From Gammaproteobacteria bacterium (GTDB lineage: Bacteria > Pseudomonadota > Gammaproteobacteria > Chromatiales > Chromatiaceae): a DNA stretch of 46,307 bases. The stretch spans positions 1 to 46,307 of the forward strand of contig JASJCU010000025.1 in assembly GCA_030065815.1 (NCBI GenBank), read 5' to 3'. Within the stretch, counting starts at the first letter, position 1; the number at the start of each line of letters is the position of its first letter. Of this stretch, positions 3,617 through 44,575 are shown in pieces. The notes below the pieces were generated by a model. The model saw only the letters and a list, made by a program, of their open reading frames with translations, had not been told where the DNA came from and did not search any database. The position numbers were made by a program, and so were the translations under genes.

Positions 3617-3775
3617 GGAACGCTGAGGACGCAGAGTTCCGCAATGGACGCGGAGACTTGGTGTTTCCTGGTCGTGGATGATTCCGGGATCCCGAGTATC
3701 CGCGATGTTTCGACAAGCCCGCTCAGCAGAAGACCACTCCGCGCCCTCTGCGATTCTCCGCGTCCTCTGCGTTCC
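3617..3775. repeat. Inverted CTCTGCG/CGCAGAG element separating tolR from tolQ
   Basis: The left arm (3617-3656, beginning GGAACGCTGAGGACGCAGAG) and right arm (3736-3775, ending CCGCGTCCTCTGCGTTCC) are imperfect reverse complements over about 40 bp, roughly 33 matches by eye. They flank about 79 bp of unrelated sequence. The arms are built from CGCAGAG/CGCGGAG-like heptamers. A related inverted pair occurs at 40499-40603. The transcript would form a long hairpin inside the tolQRAB message. No gene is seen in it. Confidence 0.8.
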
Positions 3776-3792
3776 AGCGCCCATGCCGGAAA

Positions 3793-11705: not shown

Positions 11706-11955
11706 CTAGCCTGCATAGTGCATGAGCTGCGTAGAGCCTGCGGCCTTCGCAGCCGGCGTGGAGCGGGGGTCATAGCCGTCGCCATGGCTTGGGTGACGGC
11801 CAAGCCACAGCGAGCGAGCAAACGCAGGAATCCGAATGCGACGACACCGGGCACAGACGACGATTTCCGGACTTGCAGAAAAACTGACGGAGACCACGTT
11901 CGTATCCGATGCCTGTAGAGTCGGCGTCGTTCGGCTCATGCAGCAGGCAGGCTAG
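11706..11955. mobile_element. MITE-like element, copy 1 (250 bp)
   Basis: Terminal inverted repeats CTAGCCTGCATAGTGCATG at 11706 and the reverse complement of CTAGCCTGCCTGCTGCATG at 11955 match at 19 of 22 outer positions. The interior shares blocks with the element at 43142-43399: GCCTGCGGC-ttcgcagcc, GCCATGGCTTG with GGCCAAGCCAC (a hairpin), and GTCGTTCGGCTCATGCA. No transposase is encoded. A minus-strand frame runs from an ATG in one terminal repeat (11939) to a TAG in the other (11706) and encodes 77 residues starting MSRTTPTLQASD. It sits at the boundary where the yebC-nudB pair is broken and ends 25 bp before the next gene. Confidence 0.82.
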
Positions 11956-11980
11956 CGACCTCGGGACCGCCACGACGGGC

Positions 11981-36488: not shown

Positions 36489-37004
36489 TCAGCCGGGATT
36501 GCCGTCGCCTGCGCTGTTGCGCGCGATGTAGGCCTCGATCGACGCGATCGGCACGGCGCCGGCCTGCGCCGCCCGCAGCGTGCCGTCGGGGTCGTAGAGC
36601 AGGATGCTCGGCGTGCCGCGGAACTGCGCGCCGGTCAGCATCATGTATTTCAACATCACGCTCTGCGGCTCGCCGATCAGGTTCGGAAACGGCAGGTCGT
36701 GGCGCTCGATGTACGCCGCGGCGGCAGCCTGGTCCGCGGCACCGTCGAGACTCACGCCGAGCACGGTCGCGTCGCTGTCCTTGTGCGCCTCGTGGAACTG
36801 CGCATAGTTCTCGGCCTCCTGGTTGCAGACGTGGCAGTTGTGCGCCCAGACCTTGACCACCAGCCACTTGCCGTTGCCGGTGAACGACTCGATCGACCGG
36901 AGCTCGCCGGCAAAATCGGTGAACAAGGTGTTGTCGTCGGCGACGGCCGGCGCGGCGAGGCCGCCGATCAGCAGCGCGAAGGCAGCGGCGAATGGGATTC
37001 TCAT
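36489..37004 (-). CDS. TlpA-like periplasmic thioredoxin-fold protein
   Basis: The product is 171 residues with a Sec signal (MRIPFAAAFALLIGGLAAPA) cut near VADD. The thioredoxin active site is CHVC (Cys57 and Cys60) in KVWAHNCHVCNQEAENY, followed by the typical VLGVSLDG and cis-Pro in FRGTPSILLYDPDG. It is probably a thiol-disulfide reductase or a cytochrome-maturation or sulfur-related reductase. It is convergent with the DsrE-like gene across a 205-bp gap with no supported gene. Confidence 0.9.
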   Translation of the reverse strand: MRIPFAAAFALLIGGLAAPAVADDNTLFTDFAGELRSIESFTGNGKWLVVKVWAHNCHVCNQEAENYAQFHEAHKDSDATVLGVSLDGAADQAAAAAYIERHDLPFPNLIGEPQSVMLKYMMLTGAQFRGTPSILLYDPDGTLRAAQAGAVPIASIEAYIARNSAGDGNPG

Positions 37005-37098
37005 GGCGACTCCTGGAAACGGGGGCGGGCCTGATAGCGGGACCGGCCCGGAGGATGGAATGTTGCAGCGTCACGCCGCCGTTGCATCCCTGCTGTTG

Positions 37099-40000
37099 TC
37101 AATGAAAATCACGCGACTCGACGTTCAACCCGTCGAGCAGGTCGCTGTGATCCTCGAGGCGGCGACAGAGCAGGTGCTGCACGCCCTCGGAACGCTGGAT
37201 CTCGGCGACCACGCCGAGCAGCTGCGCGCCGAGCAACACGCGGCGCTGGCGCTCGGCCAGGTCGGCCCAGATCAGCAGGTTAAGGCCGCCGTACTCGTCC
37301 TCGAGCGTGACGAAGATCGCGCGGCCGTTGCCGGGGCGCTGGCGGATCAGCACGATGCCGGCCGCGCGCACGATCTCGCCCGGCGCGCGTGCGGCGACCT
37401 CGGCCGACGACAGCAGCTCGCGCTCGCGCAGGCGCGCACGGATCAGCGCCAGCGGGTGTTCGTGCAGGGTCAGGCCGAGCTGCGCATAGTCGGCCAGCAC
37501 AGTCTGCCCCGCTGTCGGCGCCCGCAGGCGCGGCCGCCGCTCGCTGAAGCGGTCGAGGCGGGCCAGCGCCGGCGCCTCCTCGACCCCGGCGACATCCCAG
37601 GCCGCGAGGTGGCGATGACCGGCCAGCTCGCGCAAGGCATCGGCCGCGGCCAGCGCCTTGAGGTCGGCACGGTTGAGCTGTGCACGGCATGCCAGGTCCT
37701 GCACCGTTGAAAATCCGCCTGCACCACGTACCGTGGCGATTCGTGATGCTGCGGACTCAGACAGGCCCCGAATCATGCACAGACCAAGGCGCATGGCAGG
37801 CGGATTTTCAGGGCCGAGGGCCGAGGGCCGAGGGCCGAGGGGTGCACTGAACTGCGCTCCACGCTCCCCGGCCCGCGGCCCCTGGCCCGCGGCCCGCCCC
37901 CCTCTGCCCTTTGCCCTCTGCCCTCCGCCCTTCTTTGCCCTCTGCCCTCCGCCCTCCAAGGTGCAATCCCAGTCGCTGTGATTGACATCGGCCGGGCGCA
38001 CCGCGACGCCGTGCTCGCGCGCATCGCGCACCAGCTGTGCCGGCGCGTAGAAGCCCATCGGCTGGCTGTTGATCAGCGCCGCGCAGAATGCCGCCGGGTG
38101 GTAATGCTTGAGCCAGGCCGAGACGTAGACCAGCAGTGCGAAGCTGGCGGAATGCGACTCGGGAAAACCGTAATCGCCGAAACCGAGGATCTGCCGGTAG
38201 ACCCGCTCGGCGAACTCGCGCTGGTAGCCGCGCGCCTGCATGCCGTCCATCAGCTTCTTCTCGTACGGCTCGAGCCCGCCGCGCCGCTTCCACGCGGCCA
38301 TCGCACGCCGCAGCTGGTCGGCCTCGCCGGGCGTGAACCCGGCCGCGACCATCGCCAGCTTGATCACCTGCTCCTGGAAGATCGGCACGCCGAGCGTGCG
38401 TTCGAGCACGCCGCGCACCTCCTCCGACGGGTAGTCGACTGCCTCCTTGCCCTGCCGCCGGCGCAGGTAGGGGTGCACCATGTCGCCCTGGATCGGTCCC
38501 GGTCGCACGATCGCGACCTCGATCACGAGGTCGTAGAAACACTCGGGCCGCAGGCGCGGCAGCATCGACATCTGCGCGCGCGACTCGATCTGGAACACGC
38601 CGATCGTGTCGGCCTGCTGGATCATCGCGTAGACCTCGGGATCTTCGGGCGGGATGTTCGCAAGCGTTAACGCTTGCTCAGGGCCGAGGGCCAAGGGCCG
38701 AGGGCCGAGGTATCCATTTCCTTTGCCCTGCGCCCTCCGCCCTCTGCCCTGGAAGCCATTGACGAGCGCCAGCGCCCGCCGTATCGCCGACAACATGCCG
38801 AGCGCCAACACGTCGACCTTGAGCAATCCCAAGGCTTCCAGATCGTCCTTCTCCCACTGGATCACGGTGCGCTCGGGCATCGACGCGTTCTCGATCGGCA
38901 CCAGCTCGTCGAGACGGCCGGCGGCGATCACGAAGCCACCGACATGCTGCGACAGGTGGCGCGGGAAACCGCGCAGCGTGTTGACCAGCACGCGCAGGCG
39001 CCGCAGGGTCGGGTTGTGCGGATCGAAACCGGCCTCGGCGAGGTGCTGCGGCGTGATCTCGCGGTAGCGGCGCCAGGCCGCGACCGCGGCGACCAGCGCC
39101 TCGATCTGTTCCAGGCCCAAGCCCAACGCCTTACCGACGTCGCGCACCGCGCTGCGCGTGCGGTAGGTGATCACGGTCGCGGCCAGCGCGGCGCGCTCGC
39201 GACCGTACTTGCGGTAGACGTACTGGATCACCTCCTCGCGCCGCTGGTGCTCGAAGTCGACGTCGATGTCCGGCGGCTCGTTGCGCTCGCGCGAGATGAA
39301 GCGCTCGAACAGCAGGTTCATGCGCGACGGGTCGACCTCGGTGATGCCGAGGCAATAGCACACCGCCGAGTTGGCCGCCGAGCCGCGCCCCTGGCACAGG
39401 ATGTCGCGCTCGCGGGCGAAGCGGACCATGTCCCAGACGGTCAGGAAATAGGCCGCGTAGTCGAGCTCGGCGATCAGCGCCAGCTCGTGCTCGACCTGTG
39501 CCCGCACCTTGTCCGGGCAGCCGTCCGGCCAGCGCCGCGCCATGCCCTGCGCGGTCAGCCGGCGCAGCCAGGCCTGCGGCGTCAGGCCGGCCGGCGTGAC
39601 GTCGTCCGGGTACTGGTAGCGCAGCTCGTCGAGCGAGAAGCTGCAGCGTCGTGCGACGCGCACGCTCTCGGCGAGCAGCGCCGCCGGGTACAGGGCCGCC
39701 AGGTCGTCGCGCGGACGCAGGTGGCGCTCGCCGTTCGACAGCCGCGCATGGCCGAGCTCGGCGACCGGCGTGTTCAAGCGGATCGCGCTCAGCAGGTCCT
39801 GCAGCGCACGTCGGCCGCGCACGTGCATGTGCACGTCGCCGGTGGCCACGCAGCGCAGACCGGTACGCGCCGCCAGGCGTCCGGCACGTTGCAGGCAGGC
39901 AGCGTCGCGCCCGTCGCGCAGCAGTTCGACCGCCAGCCAGGCACGCCCGGCGAAGTGTGCGGCCAGCCAGTCGGCATCCGCGGCGTCACCGTCGGGACCG

Positions 40001-40812
40001 ACCGGCAGCAGTACCAGGCAGTCCGCGAGTGCACCCTCCAGGTCGCGCCGCTGCAGCCGGTAGCTGCCTTTGTCGGCATGCCGCCGGGCATGCGTGATCA
40101 GCCGGCACAGCTGGCCGTAACCGGCCCGGTTGGCCGCCAGCAGCACCAGGCGCGGGCCGTCGTCCAGGCACACCTCGCTGCCGACGATCAGCGCCAGGCC
40201 GATCGCCTTGGCCTTCTGGTGCGCACGCACGACACCCGAGACCGAGCACTCGTCGGTGATCGCCAGCGCCGCGTAGCCGAGCGCGTGCGCGCGCTCGACC
40301 AGTTCCTCCGGGTGCGACGCGCCGCGCAGGAAGGTGTAGTTACTCAGGCAGTGCAGCTCGGCGTAGGCCGAGCTGCGCGGGCCGCGAGCCAGGGGCCGGG
40401 GGCCGGGATCAGGGCCGAGGGCCGAGGGCCGAGGGACGAGGGGGTGCGTAGTCTGCTCGCCGACGGTGGTTGGCGATGGCGCCGGTGGATGTTTCTTTTG
40501 CGACGCGGAGGGCGCAGAGAAGCACAGAGAGCGCAGAGTTTCTGATGGCCGTTTGCAAAGGTTTTCTCTGCGACCTCTGCGCTTCTCTGCGCACTCTGCG
40601 TCCCCCTGGTACGGACCGCGGGCCGCGGGCCGCGGGCCGGGATCAGGGACGAGGGCCGAGGGCCGAGGGACGAGGGGGTGCGTAGTCTGCTCGCCGACGG
40701 TGGCTGACGGAGACGACATCCCTGCAGGCCTGCTGGCCCGCGGCCCGTGGCCCCCGGCCCGGCACCCTCTGCCCTCTGCCCTCTGCCCTCGACCCCTAAA
40801 CGAACAGTCCAT
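37099..40812 (-). CDS. dnaE2: DnaE2/ImuC, error-prone polymerase III alpha subunit, with repeat-encoded insertions
   Basis: The frame is 1237 residues. The DnaE2 core begins AYAELHCLSNYTFLRGASHP at about residue 149 (40368) with a PHP domain. Polymerase acidic motifs are PPDIDVDFEHQRREE (about 515) and KVDVLALGMLSAIRRAL (about 666). The C-terminal OB fold holds RAAGIVLIRQRPGNG. Two repeat-derived peptides interrupt the core: about residues 687-712, after the third catalytic Asp, and about 951-1001, before AMRLGLCMIRGLSE. No ATG, GTG or TTG start lies next to the core, so I use the ATG at 40812, overlapping the imuB stop by 17 bp; that adds about 147 repeat-encoded residues. Frame stays open throughout. 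Confidence 0.85.
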   Translation of the reverse strand: MDCSFRGRGQRAEGRGCRAGGHGPRASRPAGMSSPSATVGEQTTHPLVPRPSALVPDPGPRPAARGPYQGDAECAEKRRGRRENLCKRPSETLRSLCFSAPSASQKKHPPAPSPTTVGEQTTHPLVPRPSALGPDPGPRPLARGPRSSAYAELHCLSNYTFLRGASHPEELVERAHALGYAALAITDECSVSGVVRAHQKAKAIGLALIVGSEVCLDDGPRLVLLAANRAGYGQLCRLITHARRHADKGSYRLQRRDLEGALADCLVLLPVGPDGDAADADWLAAHFAGRAWLAVELLRDGRDAACLQRAGRLAARTGLRCVATGDVHMHVRGRRALQDLLSAIRLNTPVAELGHARLSNGERHLRPRDDLAALYPAALLAESVRVARRCSFSLDELRYQYPDDVTPAGLTPQAWLRRLTAQGMARRWPDGCPDKVRAQVEHELALIAELDYAAYFLTVWDMVRFARERDILCQGRGSAANSAVCYCLGITEVDPSRMNLLFERFISRERNEPPDIDVDFEHQRREEVIQYVYRKYGRERAALAATVITYRTRSAVRDVGKALGLGLEQIEALVAAVAAWRRYREITPQHLAEAGFDPHNPTLRRLRVLVNTLRGFPRHLSQHVGGFVIAAGRLDELVPIENASMPERTVIQWEKDDLEALGLLKVDVLALGMLSAIRRALALVNGFQGRGRRAQGKGNGYLGPRPLALGPEQALTLANIPPEDPEVYAMIQQADTIGVFQIESRAQMSMLPRLRPECFYDLVIEVAIVRPGPIQGDMVHPYLRRRQGKEAVDYPSEEVRGVLERTLGVPIFQEQVIKLAMVAAGFTPGEADQLRRAMAAWKRRGGLEPYEKKLMDGMQARGYQREFAERVYRQILGFGDYGFPESHSASFALLVYVSAWLKHYHPAAFCAALINSQPMGFYAPAQLVRDAREHGVAVRPADVNHSDWDCTLEGGGQRAKKGGGQRAKGRGGRAAGQGPRAGERGAQFSAPLGPRPSALGPENPPAMRLGLCMIRGLSESAASRIATVRGAGGFSTVQDLACRAQLNRADLKALAAADALRELAGHRHLAAWDVAGVEEAPALARLDRFSERRPRLRAPTAGQTVLADYAQLGLTLHEHPLALIRARLRERELLSSAEVAARAPGEIVRAAGIVLIRQRPGNGRAIFVTLEDEYGGLNLLIWADLAERQRRVLLGAQLLGVVAEIQRSEGVQHLLCRRLEDHSDLLDGLNVESRDFH
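37811..37961. repeat. Heptamer element HE1 inside dnaE2
   Basis: The left arm (37811-37841) is tandem GGGCCGA units. A middle part has GGCCCGCGGCCC-type sequence, and the right arm (about 37901-37961) has CTGCCCT-like units. Read as protein it encodes about 50 residues of the GQRAKGR / LGPRPSA type inside DnaE2. Its left edge abuts the arm GCAGGCGGATTTTCA (37796-37810), a perfect inverted copy of TGAAAATCCGCCTGC at 37708-37722. Confidence 0.85.
38660..38677. repeat. Perfect 18-bp palindrome abutting HE2
   Basis: GCAAGCGTTAACGCTTGC, within dnaE2 coding for A-L-T-L-A. It lies 3 bp from the left edge of the heptamer element HE2. TTA is a rare Leu codon in this GC-rich window, consistent with one half being a new inverted copy of the other. 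Confidence 0.85.
38681..38752. repeat. Heptamer element HE2 inside dnaE2 (compact)
   Basis: About 72 bp: left arm of four GGGCCGA-like units, a short AT-richer centre (TATCCATTTCCTTT) and right arm of CTGCCCT-like units. It encodes about 25 residues in frame between ALALVNGFQ and ALTLANIPPEDP of DnaE2, a position where homologues have only a short loop. This is the shortest complete copy and best defines the unit. Confidence 0.85.
40353..40376. repeat. Perfect stem-loop at the dnaE2 core start
   Basis: Arms GCAGCTCGGC and GCCGAGCTGC with loop GTAG. On the minus strand one arm is the native dnaE2 codons for A-E-L and part of H; the other encodes R-S-S-A where the ancestral start codon is expected. 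It marks the left edge of composite element HE3. Confidence 0.82.
40377..40795. repeat. Composite heptamer element HE3 at the imuB-dnaE2 junction
   Basis: It contains two AGGGCCG arms lying in a 72-bp direct repeat (40401-40472 and 40635-40706, 70 of 72 identical, spacing 234 bp), a nested CTCTGCG inverted pair (40499-40543 and 40558-40603), GGCCGCGGGCC-type tracts and a terminal CTGCCCT arm (40761-40795). It lies between the imuB stop and the dnaE2 core and has no in-frame stop in the dnaE2 frame. Confidence 0.82.
40499..40603. repeat. CTCTGCG inverted element nested in HE3
   Basis: The left arm GGCGCAGAGAAGCACAGAGA and right arm TCTCTGCGACCTCTGCGC are imperfect reverse complements separated by about 15 bp. 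It belongs to the same family as the element between tolR and tolQ, 37 kb away. Confidence 0.78.
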
Positions 40813-42238
40813 GCAGATACCACCCGCCACCGCGGCGGTCACGGAACACCCACAGCCGCTCGCCGGCCGGGCTGTGGGCGATGAAGTAGTCACGGGTGAT
40901 GTCGCCGCCGTCCCACCAGCCGGCCTCGATGCGCTCCGGCAGGTTCTCCAGGCGCAGTGCCCCGCCGTAGTCCGGCACGCCGCCGCAATCGCGCAGCGGG
41001 CGCGGGCTGGCCAGCAGCCACGGCGGCTGCGACAGACCCTGGCGGTGCGCACCGTCGGGCAGCGCGTCGCCGTCGCCCGGCCGGCACAGCTGCCAGGCAC
41101 GCTCGGGGCGGTGATCGGGCAGGCAGCGCAGGCCGCGCACCCGCTGCTCGCCAAGGCGGTTGCTGAGGCGTTCGAGCAGCGCGTGGTCGCGCGGTCCGGG
41201 ATTGTCGTCGAGCAGCGCCAGGCTGTGCTCGGCGAAGGCCTGCCAGTCGTCGACGCGCAGGCCGATCGCGACGACCGGCGCCGGCAATACCAGGCGCTCG
41301 ATACGCTCGCGGAACACCTCGAGCATATGATCGGCATCGCGGCTCGGGTCGAGCAGGCCCTGGTCGAACGCCGTCGGCGGTCGGCCGTCGCGGTGCTGCA
41401 GCGTCCACTGCAGGCGCTGCGCGCCGCCGCCGAGGCCGCGCAGGAAACCGCACAGCGCGACCATCAAACGGCGCGCCGGGAACACCAGCGCCGTGCTCTG
41501 GCCGATCTCGCCGAGCAGCTCGACGGTCTGTGCGAAGTGCCGCGGCGGTGACCACTCGTCACGCGGGTCCGCGGCATGGCCGAGCAGGCGATCGAGCAGC
41601 GCCGGCAGCGCCGGGCCGCTGCGCCGCGCCAGCTCGACACGCGGCAGCCCGAGCACGTCGCCGATGGTGTGCAGGCCGACATGCCGGACCAGCTCGCGCA
41701 CCGCGCGTTCGCGGGTCAGGCTGGCCAGTGGTAGCGGCGCGACCGCGCTGCGCAGCGCCTGTGCATCGCTCACCTCGCAGCCCGGACGGCTGCGCGCCAG
41801 CAGGCCGGCCGCGGTCGGCGTCGGCGCCAGCGCATGCCGGGCGCTGTAGCCGACCTGCTGCAGCTCGTGTTGCACGCGCTGCAGCAGCCCCGGCAGGCCC
41901 CCGAACAGGCGCCGGCTGGCGCCGACCTCGAGCAGCAACAGCGATGGCTCGAACGCGATCCGCGCGCTGAACTGGTAGGCCCAGGCCGCCAGCTCGTCGA
42001 GTGCCTGCCGCTCACGCCCGGGGTCACGGCGCTGCACGACCAGGTCGGCACACAGCGTCAGCGCCGCCGGCAGCGCCAGGCCCGGCCGTACACCGTAGGC
42101 CTGCGCCGCGCTGTTGCAGCGGCTGACCTGCTCACGCCCGGCCTGTGATTCGACGACCACCAGCGCGCCGGCCTGCTGGCGGACACGCGTGAACACCTCG
42201 AGCGGCAGCTGCGGGAAATACAGGGCGAGCCAGAGCAT
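40796..42238 (-). CDS. imuB: ImuB, catalytically inactive Y-family polymerase homologue
   Basis: The product is 480 residues. It begins MLWLALYFPQLPLEVFTRVR, in which the catalytic acidic residue of active Y-family polymerases is missing. The palm and finger segments follow (AGALVVVESQAGREQVSRCN, then SLLLLEVGASRRLFGGLPG), with the thumb HhH and little-finger regions and a C-terminal extension ending WYLHGLFV, typical of ImuB. ImuB is the hub that connects the beta clamp, ImuA and DnaE2 in damage-induced mutagenesis. The start codon overlaps a perfect 20-bp palindrome. Confidence 0.93.
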   Translation of the reverse strand: MLWLALYFPQLPLEVFTRVRQQAGALVVVESQAGREQVSRCNSAAQAYGVRPGLALPAALTLCADLVVQRRDPGRERQALDELAAWAYQFSARIAFEPSLLLLEVGASRRLFGGLPGLLQRVQHELQQVGYSARHALAPTPTAAGLLARSRPGCEVSDAQALRSAVAPLPLASLTRERAVRELVRHVGLHTIGDVLGLPRVELARRSGPALPALLDRLLGHAADPRDEWSPPRHFAQTVELLGEIGQSTALVFPARRLMVALCGFLRGLGGGAQRLQWTLQHRDGRPPTAFDQGLLDPSRDADHMLEVFRERIERLVLPAPVVAIGLRVDDWQAFAEHSLALLDDNPGPRDHALLERLSNRLGEQRVRGLRCLPDHRPERAWQLCRPGDGDALPDGAHRQGLSQPPWLLASPRPLRDCGGVPDYGGALRLENLPERIEAGWWDGGDITRDYFIAHSPAGERLWVFRDRRGGGWYLHGLFV

Positions 42239-42257
42239 GCCGGGTCATGACCCGGCA
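42238..42257. repeat. Perfect 20-bp palindrome at the imuB start
   Basis: TGCCGGGTCATGACCCGGCA. It overlaps the first base of the imuB ATG and abuts the left arm of heptamer element HE4. A hairpin here would cover the ribosome-binding region of imuB. Confidence 0.85.
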
Positions 42258-42505
42258 GGGCCGAGGGCCGAGGGCCGAGGGCCGAGGGTGTGGCCCAGCG
42301 GGCCGCGGGCCATGGGTCGCGGGTCAACGTAGCAGGCGACCGCTAAGCCTTCACCCCTTGCAGACCGGCAAATGCCGTACGCCCGTCGAGAAACAGCCAT
42401 CCGGACCCGACACTCACCGCCACCGCTACGCATCGGCCCCGCCCTCGCTCCTCGCTCCCCGATCCTCGGCCCTCCGCCCTCTGCCCTCGGCCCTCAACCC
42501 TGTGC
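42258..42505. repeat. Heptamer element HE4 spanning the imuA-imuB junction
   Basis: The left arm (42258-42295) is GGGCCGA units, followed by GGGCCGCGGGCCATGGG. About 130 bp of unrelated sequence containing the imuA stop comes next, then the right arm (about 42462-42505) with CGGCCCT/CTGCCCT units. It replaces the close imuA-imuB junction by a 187-bp gap and supplies the ImuA C-terminal residues. No other gene lies in the gap. Confidence 0.8.
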
Positions 42506-43127
42506 CGACAGGCACGATGCACGACCCACCCGCCCAGCCACCGCGCCGCTTCAGCACCTCGACCTCGAGCCCCAGCGGCGCCGGGCGCACGCGCAGGCGC
42601 AGCGCGGCCGACGAGCCCTGGCCGGCGGTACGCAGCGGGCGGAACAACAGCGCGCTGCAGTCGCCCTGCTCGGCGGCCAGCTGCAGGCGGCGCAGCTGGG
42701 CGGTCTGTGGGCCTTTGCCGCCGGCCTCGCCCGGCCACGCCAGCAGCAGGCTGCTGGCACCGGACTTGAGCACCTGCTCGGCCGCCCACAGCGCCTGCTC
42801 GTCGGACACCTCGCGGATCAGCAGCAGCCGCCCGACGCGCACGCCGCGCGCGGCCAGTGCCGGGGCATAGGGCACGTGCGGCGGCGCGACCCAGGTGATC
42901 CAGCGCGCCTCGGCACTGAGCCGCGCGATCAATGGCAGCAGCAACGACAGGCCCTGGTGGGAATCGCTGAGCAGCTCGCTGAGCGCCGCGCGCGGCCAGC
43001 CGCCGGCGAGCAGCTCGTCGAGCACCGGCCAACCGCTGGACAGCACCCGTCCGGCCGGCACCACGGCACGCCGTCCCTGCCAGAGGTCGCCGTTGCGTTT
43101 CAGATCGTCGAGACTGATTACCTGCAT
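42426..43127 (-). CDS. imuA: ImuA, mutasome accessory protein, with repeat-encoded tail
   Basis: The product is 233 residues. The RecA/SulA-like family pattern is visible: RVLSSGWPVLDELLAGGWPR, ALSELLSDSHQGLSLLLPLI and the closing LEVEVLKRRGGWAGGSCIVP. After that point the sequence becomes GLRAEGRGRRAEDRGARSEG, encoded by the right arm of heptamer element HE4, so the C-terminus has been replaced or extended. ImuA binds ImuB and RecA in related systems. The upstream 14 bp before MITE copy 2 contain only a weak ribosome site, AGG, partly supplied by the element end. Confidence 0.9.
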   Translation of the reverse strand: MQVISLDDLKRNGDLWQGRRAVVPAGRVLSSGWPVLDELLAGGWPRAALSELLSDSHQGLSLLLPLIARLSAEARWITWVAPPHVPYAPALAARGVRVGRLLLIREVSDEQALWAAEQVLKSGASSLLLAWPGEAGGKGPQTAQLRRLQLAAEQGDCSALLFRPLRTAGQGSSAALRLRVRPAPLGLEVEVLKRRGGWAGGSCIVPVGTGLRAEGRGRRAEDRGARSEGGADA

Positions 43128-43141
43128 CGCCGCGCATACCT

Positions 43142-43399
43142 AGCCTGCATGTTGCATGGGCACCCGGAGGGCCTGCGGCTTTCGCAGCCGTGGTGGCGCC
43201 GGCGTGGGGTTAAAGGCACAGCCGTGGCCATGGCTTGAGTGAAGGCCAAGCCACGGCGGGCGAGAAACCGCAGGGATCCGAACAGGACAGCGCCGGACAC
43301 CGACCGCATTTTCCGGATGTTCACGAAGATTGATAAAAATCACTTTCATATCAGATGCTTGCAGGGTCGGCGTTGTTCGGCTCATGCAACATGCAGGCT
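43142..43399. mobile_element. MITE-like element, copy 2 (258 bp)
   Basis: Perfect 17-bp terminal inverted repeats AGCCTGCATGTTGCATG (43142-43158 and 43383-43399). The interior shares several blocks with copy 1 at 11706-11955, including GCCTGCGGCTTTCGCAGCC and a GCCATGGCTTG / GGCCAAGCCAC hairpin. No transposase. As in copy 1 a minus-strand frame starts in one terminal repeat (ATG, 43385) and ends in the other (TAG, 43140): 81 residues beginning MSRTTPTLQASD. The element lies between imuA and its likely operator. Confidence 0.85.
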
Positions 43400-43445
43400 G
43401 GCCCCGCCCGGCCGGACCGGGCAGCGGCGATTCACCAGGGATGGA

Positions 43446-43463
43446 GAACAAATATAGAACAAA
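43446..43463 (-). promoter_or_regulatory. Candidate LexA-type operator of imuABC
   Basis: GAACAAATATAGAACAAA: a perfect direct repeat GAACAAA separated by TATA. On the minus strand it contains GTTC-N7-GTTC, the form of LexA box known from alphaproteobacteria. It is the most AT-rich spot in the area and lies 319 bp from the imuA start, of which 258 bp is MITE copy 2. imuABC operons are normally LexA-controlled. The repressor's identity in this organism is not known. Confidence 0.55.
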
Positions 43464-43814
43464 TTGGCCGGGCAGGCGACCCCTCGGCGATGCGTCGACC
43501 GCCGTTTGCCCATGTCGCCTGTGCGGACCCCCGCATGCGCTGCGACCCCTCTGCCGGGTGCCGGCCGGGCACCGCAGGCCGCAGGCAGCGCCGAGAGGCG
43601 TGGCGCGACCCGTTCGCCGACAGCGGCCGGCAGCGGTACCGGTGGTCGTCGCTGCCTGGGCGCCGAGATCCGCCGCAGGCGCGGACACGATCGCCGCCAG
43701 GCGGGCCCCCGGGTGTCGAGGAAACCGATGCACTGCCGTCTTCGCCGACATCCGCGGTCGTTACGCCAACAGGCACTCGGCGCACCCTGCGCTGCATGCC
43801 CTGCGTCGCCGCTG

Positions 43815-43879
43815 CCCGGGCCGGGGGCCGGGGGCCACGCGCCAAAGGCAGGTCGAGGGCCGAGGGTCGAAGGGACGGG
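43815..43879. repeat. One-armed heptamer/GC tract HE5
   Basis: CCGGGGGCCGGGGGCC followed 20 bp later by GAGGGCCGAGGGTCGAAGGG. It resembles the left side of the heptamer elements, but no CTGCCCT arm is found next to it. Probably a decayed or partial copy. Confidence 0.55.
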
Positions 43880-44098
43880 CGGCGCGTTGGCCTGCAGCCA
43901 CGGGCGGGGAAGGCGCGGGACTTTTCGTCGTCGACGCCGCGCACGCGGCGTCGTTGATTACGCTTCGCAGACGCGGCGTCCACGGCCGCTGCGTTGCGCC
44001 GAGCGCCCGGCGTCCCGGGTTCCCGAATCCGCGGCCGCCGCGGACGGCACGGGTTAAGCTCGGCCCACCGCCGGCACGCCGAGGGCCCGAACCACGCC

Positions 44099-44575
44099 AT
44101 GCGCTTCGTCTGCGACGAGATGCTCAAACGCCTCGGCCAGTGGCTGCGCGTCGCCGGTCACGACGTGCTGATCCTGCCCGACGGCAGCGACGACCGCGAA
44201 CTGCTCGAACGCGCCCGCGTCGAGCAGCGTCTGCTGCTGAGCAGCGACCGGCGGCTGGCCGAGCACCGCCACGCGCGCGACCTCCTCGTCCTGCTCGACT
44301 GCCAGGGGCTCGACGACTGCGTCGCCGCGCTCGCCCGCCATCTCGACGTCGACTGGTTGTTGCGGCCATTCAGCCGCTGCATGGCGTGCAATACGCCGCT
44401 GCGCGACGCGACTGCCGACGAACGCGGCCGGGTGCCCGACGCGGCCCGCGCGCTGGCCTCGACGGTCCGTTACTGCCCGCATTGCGAGCGGCTGTACTGG
44501 GACGGCAGCCATGTCGCACGGATGCGTGAGCGCCTCGCCCACTGGCAGCAGCTGCACACGCCGCGCCGCCGCTGA
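44099..44575 (+). CDS. Mut7-C RNase-domain protein with zinc ribbon
   Basis: The product is 158 residues. It begins MRFVCDEMLKRLGQWLRVAG, the PIN-like Mut7-C start with conserved Asp6. The motif DRELLERARVEQRLLLSSDR follows, with acidic residues. A C-terminal zinc ribbon has CxxC pairs at Cys94/Cys97 and Cys126/Cys129 (SRCMACN, YCPHCERLYWDGSH). The family is predicted to be an RNase. The target is unknown. It is a single gene on the plus strand. Confidence 0.9.
   Translation: MRFVCDEMLKRLGQWLRVAGHDVLILPDGSDDRELLERARVEQRLLLSSDRRLAEHRHARDLLVLLDCQGLDDCVAALARHLDVDWLLRPFSRCMACNTPLRDATADERGRVPDAARALASTVRYCPHCERLYWDGSHVARMRERLAHWQQLHTPRRR

Follow-up and report, generated by a model that had tools for sequence, protein, structure and literature searches.

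Heptamer hairpin repeats in frame within the error-prone DNA polymerase gene dnaE2 of a gammaproteobacterium

In a draft genome of a bacterium of the Chromatiaceae, the reading frame of the gene for the error-prone DNA polymerase DnaE2 runs straight through an array of 7-nt repeats. The question that this locus raises is whether the encoded protein loop is a tolerated passenger, serves the polymerase or the dosage of its operon, or does not belong to a working gene at all. The locus lies on contig JASJCU010000025.1, in a stretch of 46,307 nucleotides that we analysed as a whole (hereafter the window).

A repeat-laden mutasome operon

The original prediction, made from the sequence alone, was of a dnaE2 frame uninterrupted by the repeat. 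On the minus strand, the frame at 37099-41337 is indeed open over 1412 codons. From frame residue 323 onwards its product matches the NCBIfam profile PRK05672 'error-prone DNA polymerase' with 1426 bits (cut-off 939), and it contains the Pfam domains PHP, DNA_pol3_alpha, DNA_pol3_finger and HHH_6. Both the score above the cut-off of this curated profile and the gene order imuA-imuB-dnaE2 in the window identify the product as DnaE2. The features of the operon are collected in Table 1; an Rfam scan of positions 36500-44500 returned zero known RNA families.

Table 1. Genes, repeat elements and a candidate regulatory site of the imuA-imuB-dnaE2 operon (window coordinates).
Feature	Positions	Strand	Basis or remark
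GTTCTATATTTGTTC box, candidate SOS/promoter site of operon	43446..43460	-	at -333 from imuA
imuA	42426..43127	-	NCBIfam ImuA_translesion, 182.5 bits, cut-off 150
Heptamer arm encoding ImuA C-terminal tail	42434..42507	-	repeat comparison, open frame
Heptamer arm immediately upstream of imuB	42256..42323	-	repeat comparison
imuB, Y-family-like with IMS domain	40796..42238	-	Pfam IMS, 1.9e-11
Heptamer element between imuB stop and dnaE2	40612..40795	-	7-nt repeat arrays
Second inverted-repeat type, CGCAGAG-like arms 40502-40538 and 40566-40602	40502..40602	.	86% complementary
Heptamer element, 5' side of dnaE2	40378..40475	-	92% identity to 40612-40709 (98-nt copies)
dnaE2 (error-prone DNA polymerase), AYAELHC to stop	37099..40368	-	carries E2 and E1 as in-frame inserts
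E2, second in-frame heptamer hairpin in dnaE2	38680..38755	-	between ALALVNG and LTLANIPPED (28 residues)
E1, compound heptamer hairpin element	37808..37962	-	encodes loop between DWDCTLE and MRLGLCMIRGLSE
Perfect 24-nt (8-codon) tandem duplication in E1	37909..37955	-	Tandem Repeats Finder, 100% match

The element in question, E1, has the coding-strand layout (GGGCAGA-like)n-(GGGCCGC)n-spacer-(CCCTCGG)4, with 7-nt arrays at 37810-37841 and 37855-37957. A chance origin of the repeat is ruled out by (GGGCCGA) x4.6, which Tandem Repeats Finder reports at 100% match, by the 24-nt duplication and by the DNA hairpin of the coding strand, which has a z score of -5.65 (for the opposite strand, cut slightly differently, it is only -1.25). 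Folded as RNA, E1 reaches -96.2 kcal/mol (z -3.67), and 0 of 200 shuffles were equally stable. Other frames through E1 than that of dnaE2 stop at 37810 and 37775. About 50 repeat-encoded residues had been predicted for positions 37811-37961; the span from CTLE to MRLGL has 53 residues (10 K/R and 2 D/E), mostly encoded by E1, and the extent of the element proved slightly wider. Measured against the core alignment columns, 45 of the residues are extra.

A 15-nt exact inverted repeat, TGAAAATCCGCCTGC, occurs at 37703-37720 and 37796-37810, on either side of the first conserved segment past E1. We considered the inverted copies of native flanking sequence beside E1 (TGAAAATCCGCCTGC) and E2 (GCAAGCGTTAACGCTTGC) as an insertion signature and rejected them as proof, because heptamer-free relatives have much the same coding sequence there.

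Where the original prediction fell short was in treating E1 alone. The gene holds a second internal insert, E2, whose DNA fold also stands out (z -4.15 and -4.11), and its 5' region is filled with repeats. Heptamer copies further occupy the imuB-dnaE2 junction (40378-40795) and the imuA-imuB junction (42256-42507). G3+N1-7 motifs are found on both strands in all four element regions tested. On the coding strand, E1, E2 and the array of the imuB-dnaE2 junction each lead with the G-rich arm. The inverted-repeat unit of the other type found at this junction (CGCAGAG-like / CTCCGCGCCCTCTGCGTT) recurs near the start of the window, at 3737-3782.

In the dnaE2 frame, the ATG at 40719 is followed by no further ATG, GTG or TTG up to the conserved YAELHC motif (40365). 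The start of the protein is therefore uncertain, and DnaE2 would have a leader of about 118 residues encoded by repeats or, alternatively, a non-standard start. The segment between imuB and dnaE2, flanks included, measures 67-173 nt in relatives (12 loci with both ends found, some from shared genomes), far below its length in the window. The openness of this junction in the dnaE2 frame was examined as a sign of selection and rejected, because other frames are open there as well.

Upstream of imuA, a promoter-like box has been kept. A box of the same kind as GTTCTATATTTGTTC, with the sequence GTTCTATATTKGTTC, lies at -60 to -78 from imuA in 6 of 8 relatives, and the window retains it at a greater distance. 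The position at -333 is accounted for by a repeat of about 200 nt (43198-43402) that lies between the box and imuA; a second copy, at about 11752-11956, matches this repeat with 77% identity over 183 nt. Within the window, no E. coli-type LexA box (CTG-N10-CAG) was found upstream of imuA; the box found instead has the pattern GTTC-N7-GTTC, from which we take it to be a putative LexA site.

A genome-wide heptamer family and two recurrent sites in DnaE2

E1 belongs to a hairpin-forming family of G3N4 heptamers (GGGCAGA, GGGCCGC, GGGCCGA and variants) with copies throughout the genome. Used as a query, it gave 51 matches in its own genome; sorted by eye, these make up four groups within the operon and 25 loci outside it. 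The elements are strongly clustered in the 6-kb imuA-imuB-dnaE2 operon: the chance of at least four repeat groups in 6 kb is about 1e-7, given a uniform rate and the by-eye groups. Among 26 stretches fetched from the same genome the arrays are mostly intergenic where this could be judged (arrays at contig ends excepted), in-gene status being called with a codon model trained on that genome. Besides dnaE2, one array is clearly within a gene, namely a heptamer element in frame in a YgiQ-family radical SAM gene (L106:3989-4058, contig C64), and this element folds no better than shuffles (z -0.48/-0.75). The number of heptamer matches differs sharply between relatives: 25 of the 93 genomes searched, the window's own included, have any, and G057 has 201; across 15 stretches of G057 no array was flagged as in-gene, a weak result in that the codon model came from the window's genome.

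To place E1 in the protein, we turn to an AlphaFold2 model of DnaE2 (71 sequences; mean pLDDT 84.9, pTM 0.85), whose fold matches Pol III alpha (2hpi, 7pu7 and the E. coli structure 2hnh). Three segments have a pLDDT below 50: 549-561 (E2), 625-630 and 809-851 (E1). The predicted low-complexity loop is borne out here as an unstructured one, with pLDDT values of 26-37 over most of 809-851. In the model the loop lies between strands 803-805 and 858-860, shortly before a helix at 871; E1 is thus predicted to sit at a beta-hairpin turn that leads into the helix-hairpin-helix motif, and its loop would be solvent-exposed. The helix-hairpin-helix motif of Pol III alpha contacts DNA.

The original prediction had homologues joining the segments on either side of E1 directly. 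Many do, but the site is variable in length and can hold other repeats. We compared 89 DnaE2 rows, consisting of 81 (window included) and 8 added ones; L107, L108, L109 and L111 were left out as duplicates of the same protein, and some rows are incomplete (e.g. L038, L041, L062, L114, L117 and L118). At least 10 extra residues are present at the E1 site in 20 of the 89 rows and at the E2 site in 11 (8 at one alignment position and 3 at the one next to it). Together the two sites hold 31 of the 45 DnaE2 insertions of at least 10 residues, which fall at 10 sites overall.

The inserts of relatives are unrelated in sequence. Of six relatives tested, four have an insert composed of other dispersed repeats, whose pieces recur elsewhere in the same genome (at 37 other places for L028, 22 for L006, 27 for L018 and 18 for L014). 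The last of these is the complete genome of Methylomonas sp. LW13, where the insert is built from non-heptamer dispersed repeats. For the other two relatives, L024 and L003, a second copy was sought in their own genomes and not found. A genome of the same genus as the window's, G005, carries a heptamer element of its own at the E1 site, with units that differ from those of the window, and has one more immediately after imuB. A phylogeny of the genus, built to time the insertion, did not resolve the branching.

Two inserts in relatives were noted in passing. In a related metagenome-assembled genome (L028:6365-6830), several dispersed repeats totalling 466 nt fill the corresponding DnaE2 loop and add about 152 residues in frame. 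In the same-genus genome G004 (L117:563 onward) a 47-residue Ala/Ser-rich insert occupies the E1 site; it lacks obvious heptamers and is possibly a decayed element.

The essential, replicative paralogue DnaE1 serves as a control. Over the whole protein, insertions of at least 10 residues were found in 0 of 12 genomes (the window's included), and the two corresponding loops are near-constant in length. In a table compiled by hand from the insert counts of genomes that have both genes, 7 of 10 DnaE2 proteins carry an insert vs 0 of 10 DnaE1 proteins (Fisher p 0.003, in related genomes). The ImuB rows show a single insertion, not repeat-like, in L002 and L111, which, going by their DnaE2, represent one and the same protein. 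Finally, pairwise comparison of the window with four relatives gave dN/dS values of 0.13-0.27 for the segment after E1, 0.07-0.10 for the middle one and 0.14-0.26 for the one before E2, and two pairs without the window gave 0.16-0.17, 0.08-0.12 and 0.14-0.20 for the same three segments. These values point to purifying selection on dnaE2 on both sides of E1; dN/dS is a long-term average, and as such is compatible with recent loss.

Passenger or function

We consider it probable that E1 is a tolerated in-frame passenger, a copy of a dispersed repeat lodged in a permissive loop of DnaE2. E1 occupies one of two spots at which unrelated repeats have repeatedly landed in relatives, and for the most part it has the look of a passenger. 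Sequence inspection finds no stop codon in any frame of the heptamer units, so all that an insertion requires is a length in multiples of three and a loop that can accommodate it. Repeats active in a given lineage would insert again and again, and with tolerance acting as the filter they would persist in two loops of a dispensable polymerase. Translation of E1 would give an unstructured, basic loop, with about 45 residues more than the core, that the polymerase tolerates; DnaE2, dispensable and conditionally used, would survive repeat insertions, whereas the essential DnaE1 would not. Such filtering accounts for the recurrence of the sites, the diversity of the inserts and their absence from DnaE1. 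We infer that the DnaE2 protein is made and active and that the E1 loop is close to neutral. What neutrality alone leaves unexplained is the clustering of four element groups in one operon.

One alternative is that the element acts mainly as a nucleic-acid structure, with hairpins or G-quadruplexes at the two gene junctions and within dnaE2 slowing transcription or translation and thereby setting the dose of the mutasome, and with the peptide as a by-product. The folds of E1 RNA and E2 DNA, the G3+N1-7 motifs in every element region tested, the leading G-rich arm and the G-quadruplex formation reported for related heptamers in the available text of PMC4692102 all speak for such a role. However, the ygiQ element folds no better than shuffles and the inserts at the same site in relatives are structurally different, and we regard this role as unlikely. 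The inserts could instead be kept for an altered activity of DnaE2, in that a basic loop beside the DNA-binding helix-hairpin-helix would change processivity or mutagenesis. The excess of K/R over D/E, the site directly before this motif and the recurrence across DnaE2 would fit, and an effect of this sort was speculated on for repeats in repair genes in the part of PMC3733652 available. Yet the relatives' inserts are unrelated in sequence, many relatives have none, and variable, dispensable loops are expected to collect inserts anyway, so that we find this explanation rather improbable.

The tandem 7-mers also raise the idea of a phase-variation switch, in which a single 7-nt unit more or less would shift the frame and drop the C-terminal part of DnaE2, turning mutagenesis on or off. 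Both alternative frames end at or just past E1, and the tandem units together with the perfect 24-nt duplication amount to copy-number change; but there are just 4.6 perfect GGGCCGA units, and the single clear recent change, of 24 nt, is a multiple of 3. Such a switch is very improbable. A broader version holds that the two DnaE2 loops and the mutasome junctions form a platform onto which hairpin repeats are loaded time and again, and that these repeats adjust error-prone synthesis or switch it; slippage by 7 nt with loss of the DnaE2 C-terminus would be one such mechanism. If this were true, mutability itself would be a contingency trait, and we give the idea only a slim chance. The prospect that the repeat was mis-assembled, or that dnaE2 is a dead gene, has to be weighed because the window comes from a 172-contig draft in which several contigs terminate in heptamer arrays. 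Against this, inserts at the same sites appear in separate assemblies (heptamers in G005, other repeats in the complete Methylomonas sp. LW13 genome), and selection appears to be purifying on both sides of E1, which leaves an artefact or pseudogene hardly credible. In the passenger reading, noncoding repeats are seen turning into new disordered protein segments, and the passenger sits in a gene that controls mutation.

Relation to known repeat systems

Translated repeats in genes of this kind have a precedent. The available text of PMC3733652 (2013) describes palindromic repeats in DnaE2 and other repair genes, which it speculates to foster hypermutability and suspects not to be fortuitous. 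These GTAG/CGTC REPs are likewise dispersed palindromes translated in frame in replication and repair genes. They are single stem-loops of 20-40 bp with GTAG/CGTC tags, whereas E1 has about 155 nt and consists of 7-nt arrays; moreover, genes of the same category are, as far as that text goes, mostly hit at different sites (recB excepted), whereas two DnaE2 loops recur here. The Rickettsia palindromic elements (RPE), in the portion of PMC10969869 at hand, are palindromes of about 150 bp in frame within genes that add tens of residues, and E1 too is palindromic and in frame within an ORF. RPEs are defined Rickettsia families with a conserved peptide, from which E1 differs, by description, in its heptamer composition and host.

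Another comparison is with the G3N4 heptamers of Xanthomonas and Nostoc, which according to the accessible text of PMC4692102 are genome-scattered GGGNNNN arrays, mostly intergenic and commonly of four units. The present family likewise consists of tandem GGGNNNN units, 4.6 perfect ones in E1, and its arrays are mostly intergenic. The published units differ (GGGAATC etc.), and the intragenic ones (11% and 7% in two Xanthomonas) are not described in that text as in-frame loops. Heptamer direct repeats are also known from sulfur-oxidizing Gammaproteobacteria, namely the TAACTGA repeats of Beggiatoaceae and Thiocystis; as presented in the available part of PMC4679880, these differ in being A-T rich and close to start codons, with few in ORFs.

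Among the titles and abstract openings that our searches of open-access literature listed, we found neither heptamer hairpins in frame in DnaE2 nor two recurrent DnaE2 sites. Palindromic repeats in DnaE2 have thus been known since 2013; the heptamer-hairpin class is new here, as is the recurrence at two sites. With two recurrent loops, unrelated repeat families and an empty essential paralogue, the suspicion voiced in 2013 becomes a testable contrast between tolerance and selection.
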